DNA of 64,000 nucleotides from Bacteroidia bacterium (lineage in GTDB: Bacteria; Bacteroidota; Bacteroidia; B-17B0; Aurantibacillaceae), in contig JACMNO010000094.1 of assembly GCA_014378485.1 (NCBI GenBank), positions 1-64,000 of the forward strand. Direction: 5' to 3'. The stretch's first letter is position 1. The number at the start of each line of letters is the position of its first letter. The translations under genes were made by a program, and so were the position numbers. Shown here in pieces: positions 23,037-28,257 of the stretch. Below the pieces are notes generated by a model, which searched no databases, was not told the DNA's origin, and saw nothing but the letters and a program-made list of their open reading frames with translations.

Positions 23037-23596
23037 TTCACCACAGAGACACAGAGGTCACGGAGGTTTTTTTGTCGTTTTTAATAACCTTGAATTACTC
23101 TCTGAAAACCATTCTTCATCAATGGGACGTTAAAATTAATTAAAAATCCCAGCCTTTTGTCAGCCAACTTTAAATAGGTTATCAATTGCGCTTTATGGAT
23201 TGGTAATATGGCTTCAACGGACTTTAATTCGAGAATAAATTCATCTGCTACTAAGACATCAATTATATAATTTTGATCTAAAAGAAAATCTTTATAAAGA
23301 ATGGGTAACTTTATTTGAGCCACTGCTTTAATTCCTCTCAGTTCAAATTCTTTCAATAAACAGATTTCGTATGTCGATTCCAAAAGACCTGGGCCAAGAT
23401 TCCTATGAACCTCAATACAGGAATCTAAAATTTCTCCCGTTATACTATTTCTTAGTAACTCTTCCATACACAAATTAACTTCCTTTGTGCACTCTGTATC
23501 TTTGTGGTGCAAATTTAAGGAGAGCGAATTTAAGAAAAAAAAATCAAATTATTTCTCCTCCAAAAGACCTTTGTTTCACTGTGACTCCGTGGTGAA
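23037..23596. mobile_element. GxxExxY module 1: gene framed by inverted CACCACAGAG-type repeats
   Basis: The left arm, TTCACCACAGAGACACAG at 23037-23054, is matched in reverse by TTCACCACGGAGTCACAG at 23596-23579 (16 of 18). The right arm continues on the minus strand with an AAAGG...TTTTGGAGG tail, as the left arm does with GGAGGTTTT. A third copy (CACCACAAAGATACAGAG, 23510-23493) lies at the gene start. The unit is 560 bases with one gene and no transposase, and it ends one base before the globin stop codon. No clear target duplication is visible, so mobility is an inference. Confidence 0.6.
23081..23467 (-). CDS. GxxExxY protein (copy 1)
   Basis: A small protein of the GxxExxY family, named for the motif seen here as GPGLLESTY. 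The family has an unknown function; the later part, LDQNYIIDVLVADEFILELKSVE followed by HKAQLITYLKL, looks like a PD-(D/E)xK nuclease core (D, ELK). The open frame reaches back to 23512, but the first 15 codons (HHKDTECTKE) are the translated CACCACAAAGATACAGAG repeat, so ATG at 23467 (MEELLRNSITGEIL) is preferred, giving 128 residues. It is a homologue of the protein at 27843 and shares GPGLLES.Y, ELKSVE.ILP and LG.LINFN. It lies inside module 1, between ileS and a globin gene. Confidence 0.8.
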   Translation of the reverse strand: MEELLRNSITGEILDSCIEVHRNLGPGLLESTYEICLLKEFELRGIKAVAQIKLPILYKDFLLDQNYIIDVLVADEFILELKSVEAILPIHKAQLITYLKLADKRLGFLINFNVPLMKNGFQRVIQGY

Positions 23597-23597
23597 G

Positions 23598-23963
23598 CTA
23601 ACCCAATTTACCCATTTGTTTCATTTTGGTTTCAAAGGAATAGGCTATGGTTTGAGCGCGCTGGATGGCCATTTGGACTTTTTCTCCTTCAAATAAACTA
23701 TGAACGGTATTTTCAAATGTTTTGAGCCAAATGGTAAAATGCTCCGGTTTTAATGGCAAATTAACGTGCTTGTCAAAGACATTGGTGGTGTATCCTTCCT
23801 TGTCCAACAATACAAATTCCCAGAAAGCAAGCATGTGGGGCATGTGTTTTTCGAAATCCACATTGGCAAAAATTGGTTTTATATCATCATTTAATAATAA
23901 GTTTGAATAAAATGTTCTTACCATCAATTCGGCATCCGCAGATGTTGTAATGTCTTTTTTCAT
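23598..23963 (-). CDS. Group III truncated hemoglobin
   Basis: A 121-residue globin of the truncated class, group III by its length and by the pattern VRTFYSNLLLNDDIKPIF, HMPHMLAFWEFVLL and the proximal-His region LPLKPEHFTIWLKTF. Group III globins are cytoplasmic heme proteins whose physiological ligand is uncertain. The gene is alone, on the minus strand, between the methyltransferase gene and GxxExxY module 1. The module begins one base beyond its stop codon, so the 3' flank of this gene has been replaced by the module. Confidence 0.85.
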   Translation of the reverse strand: MKKDITTSADAELMVRTFYSNLLLNDDIKPIFANVDFEKHMPHMLAFWEFVLLDKEGYTTNVFDKHVNLPLKPEHFTIWLKTFENTVHSLFEGEKVQMAIQRAQTIAYSFETKMKQMGKLG

Positions 23964-24064
23964 CTGGTAAAAGTGATAAGCAAAAATGAGTCAGCAAAAT
24001 TTAATAAGAATAATGTAAGAACAACATCTTTTTCTCCGACCAATACAGCCTGTCTATGATGATT

Positions 24065-25132
24065 TTACTTTTTCTTACAGATCTGTATCGAATGACTAAT
24101 ACCCACATTATCAATTTGCTCTAAAACTTTGAATCCTGCTTTGTCGATCAATCGATTGAATACTTCGCTGTCATACATCTGGCTGTTGCCATTGGCAATG
24201 TTTGTAAAATACAAAGAAGTCATTTGTAAACTAAAAGCTCCTGGTTCAAATTTCTGTCTGTCCCAGAATGTTTCCATGATATAGATTTTTCCATCATCCG
24301 CAATGGCTTCATGACATCGCTTTAAAATACTCACGATCTCATCTTCACTGAAACAATCTAAAAACTGGCTCATCCAGATTGTATCTGCTCCTTTTGGAAA
24401 ACGCTGTGCGTCATCTAAAATATTGATCGGAAAATAATTAACCCTATCTACAAATGCCGTGTGTTGGACGTTCTCTTTTGCCATAGCCAACTGGCCGGGA
24501 AGATCCAGAATGGTAACTTTCACCTCAGAATTATAATTCATGCATTTTAAGGTGAATTTACCTGTGTTCCCGCCAATATCAAGGATATGTTTTGGCTTGC
24601 GCTTAAACAATTGTTCTAAAGCCTGATCAAACGAACCATCTGAATAAAAATGATCAAAATTAAACCAACTATCCTGTATTGGCTTTGGCAAATGCGCCAG
24701 ACCTTCATAAACAGTTGGCCAATCGCCTAATGTTTTTAATCCAGTTGGCTTTCCTTCTGTAATACTGTCTGTCAAAGTAAACATACCTTCATAACACACA
24801 TCGTTGGTAAAATCCATATTAACACGAGTCATGCGGTCGTTTAAAATAAAATTTCCCATTTTAGTGATCGTGTATTTGTAATCGTTTTTGATCACTAAAC
24901 CTATGCCTAACCCTGCCTCTAAAAGAACCCTGACGCCATATTCTGATAGCTTTAACTTAGGATAAATTTCTTCAAGTGTTATTCCGTTTTCCCCGGATTC
25001 TTCCACTGCAGTTAGAATTCCCAGATCTCTTAAGGACTTTGTAGCCTGAAAAACAATAGGTGCAAACGCAATAAACTGAGCGTTAGTAATGGCTTCGAAA
25101 GCTGATTTGGTATCTTTAGTAAAAAAATTCAT
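24065..25132 (-). CDS. SAM-dependent methyltransferase of the flexirubin/aryl-polyene type
   Basis: A 355-residue class I methyltransferase with the two-domain shape of small-molecule O-methyltransferases. An N-terminal helical/winged-helix region (residues 1-100, AITNAQFIAFAPIVFQA) precedes the SAM fold with ILDIGGNTGKFTL near residue 178 and VTILDLPGQLAMAKENV. The catalytic histidine of plant-type O-methyltransferases (usually in a LHDW stretch) is absent; the place reads MSQFLDCFSEDE. It is divergent from the tyrosine ammonia-lyase gene with 145 bases between starts. In flexirubin and related clusters such a methyltransferase stands next to the lyase, which supports a role in modifying the aromatic head group, but O- or C-methylation cannot be decided. 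Confidence 0.8.
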   Translation of the reverse strand: MNFFTKDTKSAFEAITNAQFIAFAPIVFQATKSLRDLGILTAVEESGENGITLEEIYPKLKLSEYGVRVLLEAGLGIGLVIKNDYKYTITKMGNFILNDRMTRVNMDFTNDVCYEGMFTLTDSITEGKPTGLKTLGDWPTVYEGLAHLPKPIQDSWFNFDHFYSDGSFDQALEQLFKRKPKHILDIGGNTGKFTLKCMNYNSEVKVTILDLPGQLAMAKENVQHTAFVDRVNYFPINILDDAQRFPKGADTIWMSQFLDCFSEDEIVSILKRCHEAIADDGKIYIMETFWDRQKFEPGAFSLQMTSLYFTNIANGNSQMYDSEVFNRLIDKAGFKVLEQIDNVGISHSIQICKKK

Positions 25133-25277
25133 AGTTAAAACAAATTATCGCATTTGATATAAAAGCGCCAAAATAAGGAAAAGATTAATTAACTTTTATA
25201 ATTTCTTAATAAAATAAAAATACCCATCTCCACGGATAGTAAAATTGTTTATAATATTGTAAATTGCAGGCACAAAT
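25133..25277. promoter_or_regulatory. Divergent promoter region of the polyene gene set
   Basis: 145 very AT-rich bases between the divergent methyltransferase and ammonia-lyase starts must hold both promoters. No sequence fits TTG/TAnnTTTG well in either direction, so no boxes are assigned. Confidence 0.4.
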
Positions 25278-26816
25278 ATGGTAAAGATAGGGGACAAGAA
25301 AATCTCAGCAGATGATTTCTATAAGGTTTTAATAAATAATTTAGAGCTTCAATTAGATGAAGAAGCACTAAGAAAAGTATATCGCAGTCATTATTTTTTA
25401 AAAGAGTTTACTCGTGAAAAATTAATATATGGCATTAATACAGGTTTTGGGCCAATGGCGCAATACCGCATTAACCATGATGATCAGGTAAAACTGCAAT
25501 ATAATCTAATACGCAGTCACTGTTCAGGTTCAGGTAATTATATTCCTGAGATTGATTGTAAGGCAGTGATGCTGGCTCGTTTAAATACATTGATGCAGGG
25601 ATTTGCAGGGATTCACCCGGATGCCCTGATCTTAATTAAAGACCTGATCAATAAAAATATTTCGCCTGTTATTTACGAACATGGTGGACTTGGTGCCAGT
25701 GGCGATTTAGTGCAATTAGCACACCTAGCGCTAACCTTAATAGGTGAAGGCGAAGTGTACTACAAAGGAACTATTACTGACACTGCGGAAGTTTTTAAAA
25801 AAGAAAACATCAAGCCGATGGAGATCCATATTCGTGAAGGTTTGGCTTTAATGAATGGAACCTCTGCTATGAGTGGAATTGGGATGTTGAATGTTATTTA
25901 TGCAGAGAACCTTATGAACTGGAGCCTTTTAGCTTCAGCAACCATTATGGAGTTAGTACAGAGTTTTGACGATCACTACTCTACTCCATTAAATGAAGTA
26001 AAACATCATTACGGACAAAACCTGGTTGCTAAAGCGTTACAAGAAACATTAAAAGATAGTAAGCTGGTAAAGAGCCGAGAAGAACATCACTACAACCAAA
26101 AAGTTGAAGTAGATGTGCTGGTTGAAAAAATGCAGGAATACTACTCTATTCGCTGTGTTCCCCAAATTGTAGGGCCAATTGTTGATACCGTTAATTATGC
26201 AAAAGGAGTTTTGATCAATGAAATTAATTCTGCCAATGATAATCCGATAGTAGATTGGGAACGTAAAAACGTATACCATGGTGGTAATTTTCATGGTGAT
26301 TATGTGGCATTGGAAATGGATAAATTAAAAATTTCTATTACCAAATTATCCATGCTTGCCGAAAGACAATTGAATTTTTTACTTAATAATAAACTCAATA
26401 ACATACTACCGCCATTTGTTAACCATGGTGTGCTAGGTTTGAATTTAGGAATGCAGGGCGTGCAATTTACTGCTACATCAACAACTGCCGAAAATCAAAT
26501 GTTATCAAATCCTATGTACGTGCATAGTATCCCAAGTAACAATGATAACCAAGATATTGTAAGCATGGGGGCTAACGCTTCATTGATATGCAAAAAAGTG
26601 ATTATGAACAGTTTTGAAGTTTTAGCTATTGAATGGATGACCATTTTACAAGCGATTGATTATTTGAAGATGCAGGATAAACTATCTTCCAAATCAAAAG
26701 ATGCTTATGTAAAACTTCGTAAAATATTTCCGTGTTTTGTGGAGGATACCACTAAATATAAAGATGTGAAAGCAGTAAGAGATTTTATATTTTATAACCA
26801 CATAGAGATTTTGTAA
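25278..26816 (+). CDS. tal: Aromatic amino acid ammonia-lyase, tyrosine type
   Basis: A 512-residue lyase of the HAL/PAL/TAL family that removes ammonia from an aromatic amino acid; the product from tyrosine is 4-coumarate. The MIO cofactor triad Ala140-Ser141-Gly142 lies in GGLGASGDLVQLAH. The N-terminal Tyr loop is YGINTGFGPMAQYRI. The specificity region LQYNLIRSHCSGSG, and stretches such as VYHGGNFHGDYVALEMDK and QMLSNPMYVHSIPS, match what I recall of the Flavobacterium johnsoniae tyrosine ammonia-lyase, not HutH. No other histidine-use genes are near, while KS, ACP and FabG genes follow. It is therefore likely to make the starter for a flexirubin/aryl-polyene product. Confidence 0.87.
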   Translation: MVKIGDKKISADDFYKVLINNLELQLDEEALRKVYRSHYFLKEFTREKLIYGINTGFGPMAQYRINHDDQVKLQYNLIRSHCSGSGNYIPEIDCKAVMLARLNTLMQGFAGIHPDALILIKDLINKNISPVIYEHGGLGASGDLVQLAHLALTLIGEGEVYYKGTITDTAEVFKKENIKPMEIHIREGLALMNGTSAMSGIGMLNVIYAENLMNWSLLASATIMELVQSFDDHYSTPLNEVKHHYGQNLVAKALQETLKDSKLVKSREEHHYNQKVEVDVLVEKMQEYYSIRCVPQIVGPIVDTVNYAKGVLINEINSANDNPIVDWERKNVYHGGNFHGDYVALEMDKLKISITKLSMLAERQLNFLLNNKLNNILPPFVNHGVLGLNLGMQGVQFTATSTTAENQMLSNPMYVHSIPSNNDNQDIVSMGANASLICKKVIMNSFEVLAIEWMTILQAIDYLKMQDKLSSKSKDAYVKLRKIFPCFVEDTTKYKDVKAVRDFIFYNHIEIL

Positions 26817-26829
26817 CAAAAATATCGTG

Positions 26830-26896
26830 CTTGTCAGCCTGAGCGGAGTCGAAGGCAAGCCGATAAAGAGTTCTCGACTACGCTCGAACTGACAAA
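26830..26896. repeat. Palindromic intergenic repeat (TTGTCAG...GAGCGGAGTCGA family)
   Basis: The left arm TTGTCAGCCTGAGCGGAGTC and the reverse complement of the right end, TTGTCAGTTCGAGCGTAGTC, agree at 16 of 20 positions. The unit is about 67 bases and sits between the lyase and fabG genes. The GTCAG...GAGCGGAGTCGA motif is familiar from intergenic repeats in many Bacteroidota genomes. Confidence 0.8.
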
Positions 26897-26905
26897 AATA
26901 AAACT

Positions 26906-27634
26906 ATGGAATACGCATTAGTAACCGGCGGAAGTCGTGGCATTGGAAAAGCAATTTGTTTGCGGCTGGCAGATATGGGATATAATATTATTTTAAATTA
27001 TACTTCAAACGATACAGAGGCCAATAAAACAAAAGATCTTTTAACGGCAAAAGGAGTTGATGTGGTATTAATGAAATTTGATGTGAGTAGCACGGAAGAT
27101 TCTGATGCACACATTGAAACATGGATCAATTCTAATAAAGATAAAGCGATCACCGTGCTGGTAAACAATGCCGGGATCCGTAAAGATAACATCATGGTAT
27201 TCATCCAGCCGGAAGACTGGAAACGTGTGATTGATATTACGGTTGATGGTTTTTATAATGTGACCCGTCATGTCGTAAAAAGTATGCTAACCAAACGTAA
27301 AGGCCGCATTGTGAATATTGTTTCTTTATCTGGTCTCAAAGGAATGCCAGGACAAACCAGTTATTCTGCAGCTAAAGGCGCTGTGATAGCTGCAACCAAA
27401 GCTTTGGCACAGGAAGTTGGTAAACGTGGTATTACTGTAAATGCAGTAGCTCCCGGATTTATAAAAACGGACATGACAGAGGATATTAAAGAAGAGGATT
27501 ATAAATTTATGGTGCCAATGAACCGTTTTGGCGAACCGGATGAAGTGGCGGGTGTCGTTGCTTTTTTAGTGGGCAAAGATTCAACTTATGTTACAGGACA
27601 GATTATTTCAGTTAACGGAGGTTTATATAGTTAA
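26906..27634 (+). CDS. fabG: 3-oxoacyl-ACP reductase
   Basis: A 242-residue short-chain dehydrogenase that reduces 3-oxoacyl-ACP with NADPH. The cofactor motif TGGSRGIGKA is at residues 7-16, NNAG is present, and the active site is Ser near 140 with Tyr153 and Lys157 (SYSAAKG). The C-terminal part FLVGKDSTYVTGQIISVNGG is typical of FabG. The next genes of the set (ketosynthase, ACP, acyltransferase) are on the same strand, but they are cut off by GxxExxY module 2. By context it is the dedicated reductase of the polyene pathway, not the housekeeping FabG; this is an inference. Confidence 0.9.
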   Translation: MEYALVTGGSRGIGKAICLRLADMGYNIILNYTSNDTEANKTKDLLTAKGVDVVLMKFDVSSTEDSDAHIETWINSNKDKAITVLVNNAGIRKDNIMVFIQPEDWKRVIDITVDGFYNVTRHVVKSMLTKRKGRIVNIVSLSGLKGMPGQTSYSAAKGAVIAATKALAQEVGKRGITVNAVAPGFIKTDMTEDIKEEDYKFMVPMNRFGEPDEVAGVVAFLVGKDSTYVTGQIISVNGGLYS

Positions 27635-27640
27635 GAAAAA

Positions 27641-28257
27641 ATGTCTCGCAAAGGTGCAGAGACGCTAAGAAAAACAAAAAAATGAATAAAATATAGTTAT
27701 TTTGATACCCTTAATGATTCTGCAGATAACCCTGTGCGGGTTAGCGACTTTATTAGAAACAATTTAAAAGACAACAACACATACTCTCAACATAGCTAAC
27801 TACACTTTATGACTTAGCGGCTTAGCAAGAAACAATTAAGAAATGACAGAAAATGAACTTTCTAAAATAATAGTAAATACAGCGTATCAGATTCACACAA
27901 AACTTGGTCCCGGACTTTTAGAATCTGTTTACGAAAAAATCATGTTGTACGAACTAACCAGACAAGGATTAAGCGCTGAATTTCAAAAAGGAATACCCGT
28001 TGTTTGGAATGAAGTAAACATGGAGATAGGATTTAGAGCAGACTTAATAGTAGAAAAAACAGTTATTATTGAGTTGAAATCAGTTGAAACAATATTACCA
28101 GTTCATCAAAAACAATTACTCACATATTTAAAATTAACTAATTTAAAACTGGGTCTACTTATTAATTTTAATGAAAGTTTAATAAAAAATGGGATTACGC
28201 GTATTGTCAATAATTTATAATTTAAAAACTTTGCGGCTTTGCGGCTTTGCGAGAAAT
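27641..28257. mobile_element. GxxExxY module 2: gene framed by inverted TCTCGCAAAG-type repeats
   Basis: The left arm TCTCGCAAAGGTGCAGAGAC (27644-27663) and the reverse complement of the right arm, TCTCGCAAAGCCGCAAAGCC (28254-28235), agree at 16 of 20 positions, and the TCTCGCAAAG core is exact. A third related copy (GACTTAGCGGCTTAGCAAG, 27811-27829) lies 13 bases before the gene. The 617-base unit carries one GxxExxY gene and no transposase. It separates fabG from the ketosynthase gene. No target duplication is evident. Confidence 0.6.
27843..28220 (+). CDS. GxxExxY protein (copy 2)
   Basis: A 125-residue member of the GxxExxY family with the signature GPGLLESVY and a PD-(D/E)xK-like core (FRADLIVEKTVIIELKSVE, then HQKQLLTYLKL). 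Its function is unknown. It is related to the protein at 23081 but clearly diverged from it (for example, MLYELTRQGLSAEFQKGIPV in place of CLLKEFELRGIKAVAQIKLPI). It starts 13 bases after a repeat copy and ends 14 bases before the right repeat arm, so the gene fills most of its module. Nothing suggests that it takes part in the flanking biosynthetic pathway. Confidence 0.82.
   Translation: MTENELSKIIVNTAYQIHTKLGPGLLESVYEKIMLYELTRQGLSAEFQKGIPVVWNEVNMEIGFRADLIVEKTVIIELKSVETILPVHQKQLLTYLKLTNLKLGLLINFNESLIKNGITRIVNNL

Follow-up and report, generated by a model that had tools for sequence, protein, structure and literature searches.

In a window of 64,000 nucleotides (nt) from a Bacteroidia bacterium of the Aurantibacillaceae (contig JACMNO010000094.1, positions 1 to 64,000), two genes of the GxxExxY family are each enclosed by inverted arms built of tandem 7-base units, and the unit that is repeated in such arms follows the protein, not the host. 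The two proteins are diverged (41% identical) and the repeat families differ, being CACAGAG-like in module 1 and CGCAAAG-like in module 2. Such parallel change of word and protein suggests a family of enzymes paired with target repeats that has so far gone unrecognised. A preliminary description of this region had proposed that diverged GxxExxY proteins go with repeats of their own, and the proposal held when more loci were compared: protein and repeat co-vary across genomes and within genomes, beyond flank homology.

Module 1 spans positions 23037-23596, upstream of a gene that we take, from its translation, to be ileS. Its GxxExxY gene lies on the minus strand (23081-23467, ATG at 23467, 128 amino acids; the run used in the profile searches starts at 23473, two codons 5′ of the ATG). 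The outer arm on the 5′ side of the gene, TTCACCACGGAGTCACAGTGAA (minus strand, 23575-23596; sequence and inverted-repeat alignment), faces the arm on the 3′ side, TTCACCACAGAGACACAGAGGTCACGGAGG (plus strand, 23037-23066; sequence and pattern search). Module 2 (27644-28254) is located between genes presumably coding for a short-chain dehydrogenase/reductase and a ketoacyl-synthase, both names being again our own assignment from the translations. Its GxxExxY gene (plus strand, 27843-28220, 125 amino acids), supported by profile searches, alignment and a structure model, is preceded by the arm TCTCGCAAAGGTGCAGAGACGCTAAG (plus strand, 27644-27669; sequence, pattern search and inverted-repeat alignment) and followed by CTTTGCGGCTTTGCGGCTTTGCGAGA (minus strand, 28229-28254; sequence and pattern search), which contains three CGCAAAG units. 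By eye, the arms are tandem 7-mers and not palindromes, and the single-strand folds of the two arms of module 2 have z values of -3.0 and +0.9. Both families exceed chance. For instance, CACCACAGAGACACAGAGG with up to 3 mismatches has 2 matches in the window (0.00 expected). The string CTCGCAAAGGCGCAAAG, under which the second family had been described, is absent from the window in exact form; its three matches carry 1, 2 and 3 mismatches, 0.06 being expected.

The relationship between arms and proteins was measured without any regular expression (regex) for the units. The higher the identity of two proteins, the more similar are their arms (Mantel r=0.65, 125 loci), none of 3000 permutations being as high, and the same holds below 60% identity (r=0.36) and below 50% (r=0.14), each again with 0/3000. 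A search with the module 2 protein supplied 80 of the loci, which are biased to the module 2 type; when they are left out, so that only relatives remain (73 loci), r is 0.55 (0/3000). Within single genomes r is 0.47 (121 pairs from 14 genomes, 0/3000), and within genomes below 70% identity it is 0.41, with 1 of 3000 permutations as high. Among 111 loci, the proportion of pairs that share a unit type is 2-4% at 25-40% protein identity, 46% at 50-60%, 86% at 60-80% and 98% above 80%. Once the arms are masked, pairs at 60-80% identity have an upstream similarity of 8.2-8.6, compared with 7.8-8.0 for more distant pairs and 6.1-6.4 throughout for shuffled sequence; at this same 60-80% identity, where the masked flank does not stand out, unit-type agreement is 0.87-0.89. 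On a protein tree of 65 rows, 18 changes of unit type are required, compared with a mean of 37 and a minimum of 32 in 300 shuffles. Unit type is shared with the nearest protein of another genome in 36 of 53 cases, and with other modules of the same genome in 20 of 116. Unrelated GxxExxY proteins that occur together in a genome carry different units.

In 47 of 62 loci the 5′ arm resembles the flanks of its closest relative more than the 3′ flank of its own locus; in 14 it resembles them less, and in one equally. Homogenisation of the two arms within a locus is rejected on these counts.

Flanking arms are a common property of these genes, which were found in 73 of the 100 relatives searched. Matched inverted flanks (score of at least 14, flanks long enough) are present in 111 of 186 GxxExxY loci and in 4 of 129 control open reading frames (ORFs) of a first set, so most of the genes do have such flanks. 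Clusters of at least two units occur in the flanks of 132 out of 188 loci, compared with 16 of 132 among control ORFs; from 199 profile hits in 192 loci, these 188 remain once rows with fewer than 80 model positions and duplicates are dropped. The unit consensus is commonly C[A/G]CN[A/G]A[G/T], unit starts are mostly 8, 9, 10 or 12 nt apart, and most arms have two or three units. Since the unit regex misses types such as CACATAG and CATAAAAG, counts based on it are too low. The loci most similar to the module 2 protein mostly bear Bacteroidota labels. For other groups (eight genomes so labelled and four plasmid records), arms with a score of at least 13 were found in 22 of 35 rows, some of which repeat loci of the module 2 search and some of whose labels, coming from metagenome-assembled genomes, may be misbinned. 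Carriage on plasmids or phages was considered and rejected: with one protein as query, the gene was found in 7 plasmid records out of 72,556 and in no phage record out of 50,697. No signal of target-site duplication was seen in 88 loci with strong arms, the mean longest match outside the arms being 3.43 compared with 3.32 after shuffling (69 of 500 shuffles as high).

Several single loci deserve mention. On a Gemmatirosa replicon (L501), perfect 32-nt inverted arms of CGCAGAG units have an orientation opposite to the usual one. On a Sphingomonas replicon (L503), the GxxExxY gene lies between fabD and fabG, again a fatty-acid gene context, and it has no matched arms (inverted-repeat score 9). 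A third GxxExxY copy of the window's own genome (L003, contig C32) has one in-frame stop and no matched arms, again at a score of 9. Genes for four-helix-bundle proteins (TIGR02436, loci L421-L450) have inverted arms of their own in 14 of 30 cases, made of unrelated tandem units (TTAGG-, GAGATAT-, AGTAGAAAGTA- and GGTTCTA-like); as a second gene family they share the anatomy of the GxxExxY modules, which is close to the published layout of the S23 intervening sequences (IVS) of 23S ribosomal RNA (rRNA).

Arrays of the module type also occur without a gene in the own genome (G000; related genomes are numbered likewise), several as inverted pairs, and are dispersed in intergenic gaps. By our own count, double units of the CAC type outside modules number 11 in G000, 11 in G003 and 1 in G012, whereas none of the genus's 17 remaining genomes has more than one; G000, G003 and G012 are the three genus genomes in which a CAC-type gene was seen, in all cases at the ileS site. 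The gene-less counts of G000 and G003 may owe part to common descent. At the ileS site, G016 lacks the gene and carries CGCAAAG-type arms on both sides, and G005, G019 and G011 carry such an arm on at least one side. At the site of module 2, the gene is absent in all 12 species in which the junction was read, and the neighbouring genes are less than about 20 nt apart in G003, G004, G005, G007 and G016. A module 2-type 3′ arm (a double unit) stands directly before the ketoacyl-synthase gene of G019, at a contig start.

Orthologous gaps are reused by these arrays. In eight other genomes a unit cluster was found in 20 of 63 such gap regions, against 3 of 134 control regions and 2 of 24 unselected gaps; 8 of the 31 distinct listed places in the eight genomes fall, by our count, at a site known from G000. 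Gap S6 holds three unit types: CACAGAG in G000, CGCAAAG in G003, G005 and G019, and CGCAGAT in G004, G016 and G017. At gap S8, G000 has a pair without a gene and G017 a module with one, and other genomes have unrelated repeats (in G003 and G005 these are GTTGTTGG-like, in G011 they are ACGAAT-like). The types at S6 could be read as conversion of one repeat into another at a fixed site. However, since S8 is also used by unrelated repeats, in-place conversion is less likely and recurrent arrival at permissive gaps fits better.

Other arrangements of arrays were also seen. In G005, arrays on contig C35 (8440, 8544 and 8648) follow a GxxExxY gene at a regular 104-nt step, and those on contig C6 (70, 122 and 174) have a regular 52-nt step. 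At L316 (G000, contig C54), a half repeat follows asnS and has beside it an ORF that we take to resemble an ORF6N-type fragment.

The assignment of both window proteins to the GxxExxY family is clear. TIGR04256 matches with E=1.4e-39 for module 1 and 1.1e-41 for module 2 (135 and 141.8 bits, cut-off 35), and PF13366 (PDDEXK_3) with E=7.2e-39 and 1.2e-39 (133.2 and 135.7 bits, cut-off 22). Four residues (E27, Y30, D67 and K79) do not vary across 74 aligned sequences, and three more (E77, Q91 and Y95) show a conservation of at least 90%. To judge from this alignment, the conserved E...D...ExK residues form the putative PD-(D/E)xK active site, accompanied by a QxxxY feature such as that of Cas4, RecB and lambda exonuclease. 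The structure model is confident (pLDDT 95.3, pTM 0.88) and has an alpha/beta core fold, whose nearest solved folds are SSO0001 (which we take to be Cas4), LHK-Exo, lambda exonuclease, tRNA-splicing endonucleases and Holliday junction resolvases, the best match having E=2.9e-3. Profile libraries returned weak Cas4 matches and a CRISPR-associated phage family at E=2.1e-4. The protein is thus a predicted PD-(D/E)xK nuclease, similar to Cas4 and lambda exonuclease. It shares with that branch the E, D, ExK and QxxxY residues and the nearest solved folds, but differs from it in its size of about 125 residues, in its flanking repeats, in the lack of [4Fe-4S] cysteines (none seen by eye in the two window proteins) and in having no solved relative by sequence up to E=1. 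A passage of PMC8934634 reports a cas4 gene that an annotation pipeline had named GxxExxY. Two kinds of enzyme had been suggested in the preliminary description, a PD-(D/E)xK nuclease and a tyrosine recombinase. The conserved residues and the predicted fold agree with the former; the predicted fold does not support the latter, and the invariant tyrosine is the Y of the GxxExxY motif itself. At E≤0.001 the only Pfam and NCBIfam matches of the two modules' genes were PF13366 and TIGR04256, with no tyrosine recombinase domain, no HUH Y1 transposase (TnpA_REP) and no other transposase family.

We lean, with modest confidence, towards the view that GxxExxY modules are selfish nuclease-repeat duos, which would work in a RAYT/REPIN-like manner with an unrelated enzyme. 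The small PD-(D/E)xK protein would recognise the tandem 7-base-unit array of the inverted arms that enclose its gene and, probably, the gene-less inverted pairs of its unit between host genes as well. It would cut at or near these arrays, and the repair that follows could spread or restore the element, with the protein as the presumed driver of this spread. Under this proposal, cutting and repair-driven spread would be the reason why gene and repeat evolve together. A wider version, which is quite possible and which we put forward tentatively, is that of a widespread, so far undescribed class of sequence-specific duos in which a PD-(D/E)xK protein of about 125 residues would read a 7-mer code by subfamily (CGCAAAG, CACAGAG, CGCAGAT, CACGAAT, CACATAG and others) and would drive both its own gene and gene-less pairs, with a parallel and independent duo of the four-helix-bundle (S23-like) proteins.

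Several results weigh against the duo. Matched arms are missing at the threshold in 75 of 186 loci, and the structural matches of the protein are weak, none reaching E≤0.001. The regex-based test within genomes below 70% identity is not significant (953/5000), and when the nearest foreign protein is less than 60% identical the unit type matches in 0 of 4 cases. Prediction of held-out arms is weak: over 16 arms, with record L501 counted twice, the mean percentile is 0.65 and 9 arms lie above 0.8 (p=0.035). In G012, a CAC-type gene is accompanied by a single gene-less CAC match; G005 has gene-less CGCAAAG-type pairs, yet none of its five GxxExxY loci has arms of the AACCGCAAAG form, and of the 43 GxxExxY matches in the genus 35 were typed and 8 left untyped. 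In addition, co-inheritance of arms and gene could yield part of the co-variation.

This last point is the core of a hitch-hiking explanation, in which the arrays would be independent dispersed repeats moved by another enzyme, the GxxExxY genes would have been captured between them, and co-variation would reflect co-inheritance. It would account for the gene-less pairs, more numerous than modules in the own genome, for the use of the same gaps by several repeat families, some of them unrelated to the GxxExxY-type units, and for the 47 of 62 loci mentioned above if modules descend with their arms. Nevertheless we regard it as unlikely, given that arm type is kept at 60-80% protein identity though the masked flanks of such pairs resemble each other no more than those of distant pairs, that unrelated GxxExxY proteins of one genome have different units, and that none of 31 four-helix-bundle loci in the same genomes carries the GxxExxY-type units. 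A different possibility is that the module acts at the RNA level like an IVS: the arms would pair in the transcript, a host enzyme such as RNase III would excise the module, the neighbouring messages would survive, and the protein would not read the repeat. Inverted arms with a gene in the loop have the required form, and a passage of PMC4990558 describes for the Coxiella 23S IVS the same kind of anatomy, with three tandem heptamers, a 28-bp terminal inverted repeat and excision by RNase III. An IVS-like element, however, does not predict that the unit tracks the protein. Moreover, the similarity of the 5′ arm to its own 3′ flank and to those of same-type relatives is 0.32 and 0.28 at 60-70% identity and 0.31 and 0.32 at 70-80%; because the own flank is fitted no better, exact arm pairing is not maintained within the locus, and we hold this explanation to be decidedly unlikely. 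The protein might, finally, be a regulator that binds the arrays as operators, or a defence protein acting on foreign DNA, its mobility being incidental. Arrays flanking the gene on both sides and also occurring alone, a patchy presence with many copies, some of them broken, and the absence of any match to a defence model of its own family make this very improbable, in spite of the operator-like appearance of fixed-spacing tandem arrays and of weak Cas4 and type IIG matches in the defence library.

The duo has counterparts among known systems. In RAYT systems, according to passages of PMC3116915 and PMC8266576, the enzyme gene adjoins its repeats, gene-less inverted pairs are dispersed between genes, and enzyme and repeat co-evolve. 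GxxExxY modules resemble this RAYT/REP/REPIN organisation ('REPtron') in having a nuclease-type gene beside repeats, dispersed gene-less inverted doublets, and an enzyme and a repeat that co-evolve. They differ from it in the enzyme, a predicted PD-(D/E)xK protein and not a HUH transposase, in their arms, by eye tandem 7-mers and not palindromes, in the presence of several diverged gene copies per genome, tnpA_REP being mostly single-copy in the passages of the RAYT/REPIN literature that treat it, and in the far lower number of pairs per genome. Because the enzyme is unrelated, the duo is not a member of RAYT/REPIN. The small ORF, tandem heptamers and terminal inverted repeats recall the 23S rRNA IVS/S23 elements as presented in part of PMC4990558, but the modules lie between protein-coding genes and not in 23S rRNA, and their protein has a predicted nuclease fold and not a four-helix bundle. 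With miniature inverted-repeat transposable elements and insertion sequences they share inverted ends, gene-bearing and gene-less forms and patchy presence; they lack the target-site duplication signal and, in the genes of the two modules, a transposase family, and their ends are tandem-unit arrays. A literature search, with most subscription papers and all preprints outside its scope, gave no account of a GxxExxY-repeat duo, and none was obtained from the repeat words or from PDDEXK_3 together with repeats; the passages found that mention GxxExxY give it no role and do not concern repeats. Layout and co-evolution have a RAYT/REPIN precedent, and the enzyme and the repeat are without one.

Both modules contain a third repeat copy just 5′ of the gene, as had been described. 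However, the layout is not common to the two, since the third copy of module 1 (minus strand, 23483-23510, including a 3-mismatch match at 23491-23509) is direct with respect to the 5′ outer arm and that of module 2 (minus strand, 27813-27829, direct-repeat family D1) is inverted. Nor is a third copy a general feature: among 66 loci with an outer pair, a second upstream cluster is forward in 11, reverse in 15 and of either kind in 23. In module 1, an alternative in-frame TTG at 23512 would take the reading frame into the third copy. The third copy and the outer 5′ arm are separated by a stretch at about 23516-23545 that looks like a promoter and is conserved before ileS across the genus. Since related species that lack the GxxExxY gene have a counterpart of this stretch before ileS as well, the outer arm of module 1 need not have come with the gene. 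A further element of about 90 nt, with palindromic ends GTCAG...GAGCGGAGTCGA and TCGACTACGCTCGAACTGAC, was noticed at 26817-26905, between a lyase-like gene and the dehydrogenase/reductase gene; G016, G007 and G005 lack it at the orthologous position, and a similar pair occurs at gap S9 of G005.

Should the duo prove real, it would account for one class of the inverted repeats that lie between genes in these bacteria, and RAYT/REPIN would gain a nuclease-based counterpart. The family would then also offer, ready-made in nature, a set of small proteins each matched to its target word, which could serve to work out a DNA-recognition code, and the presence of two proteins with two arrays in one genome would allow a direct first test of the duo.

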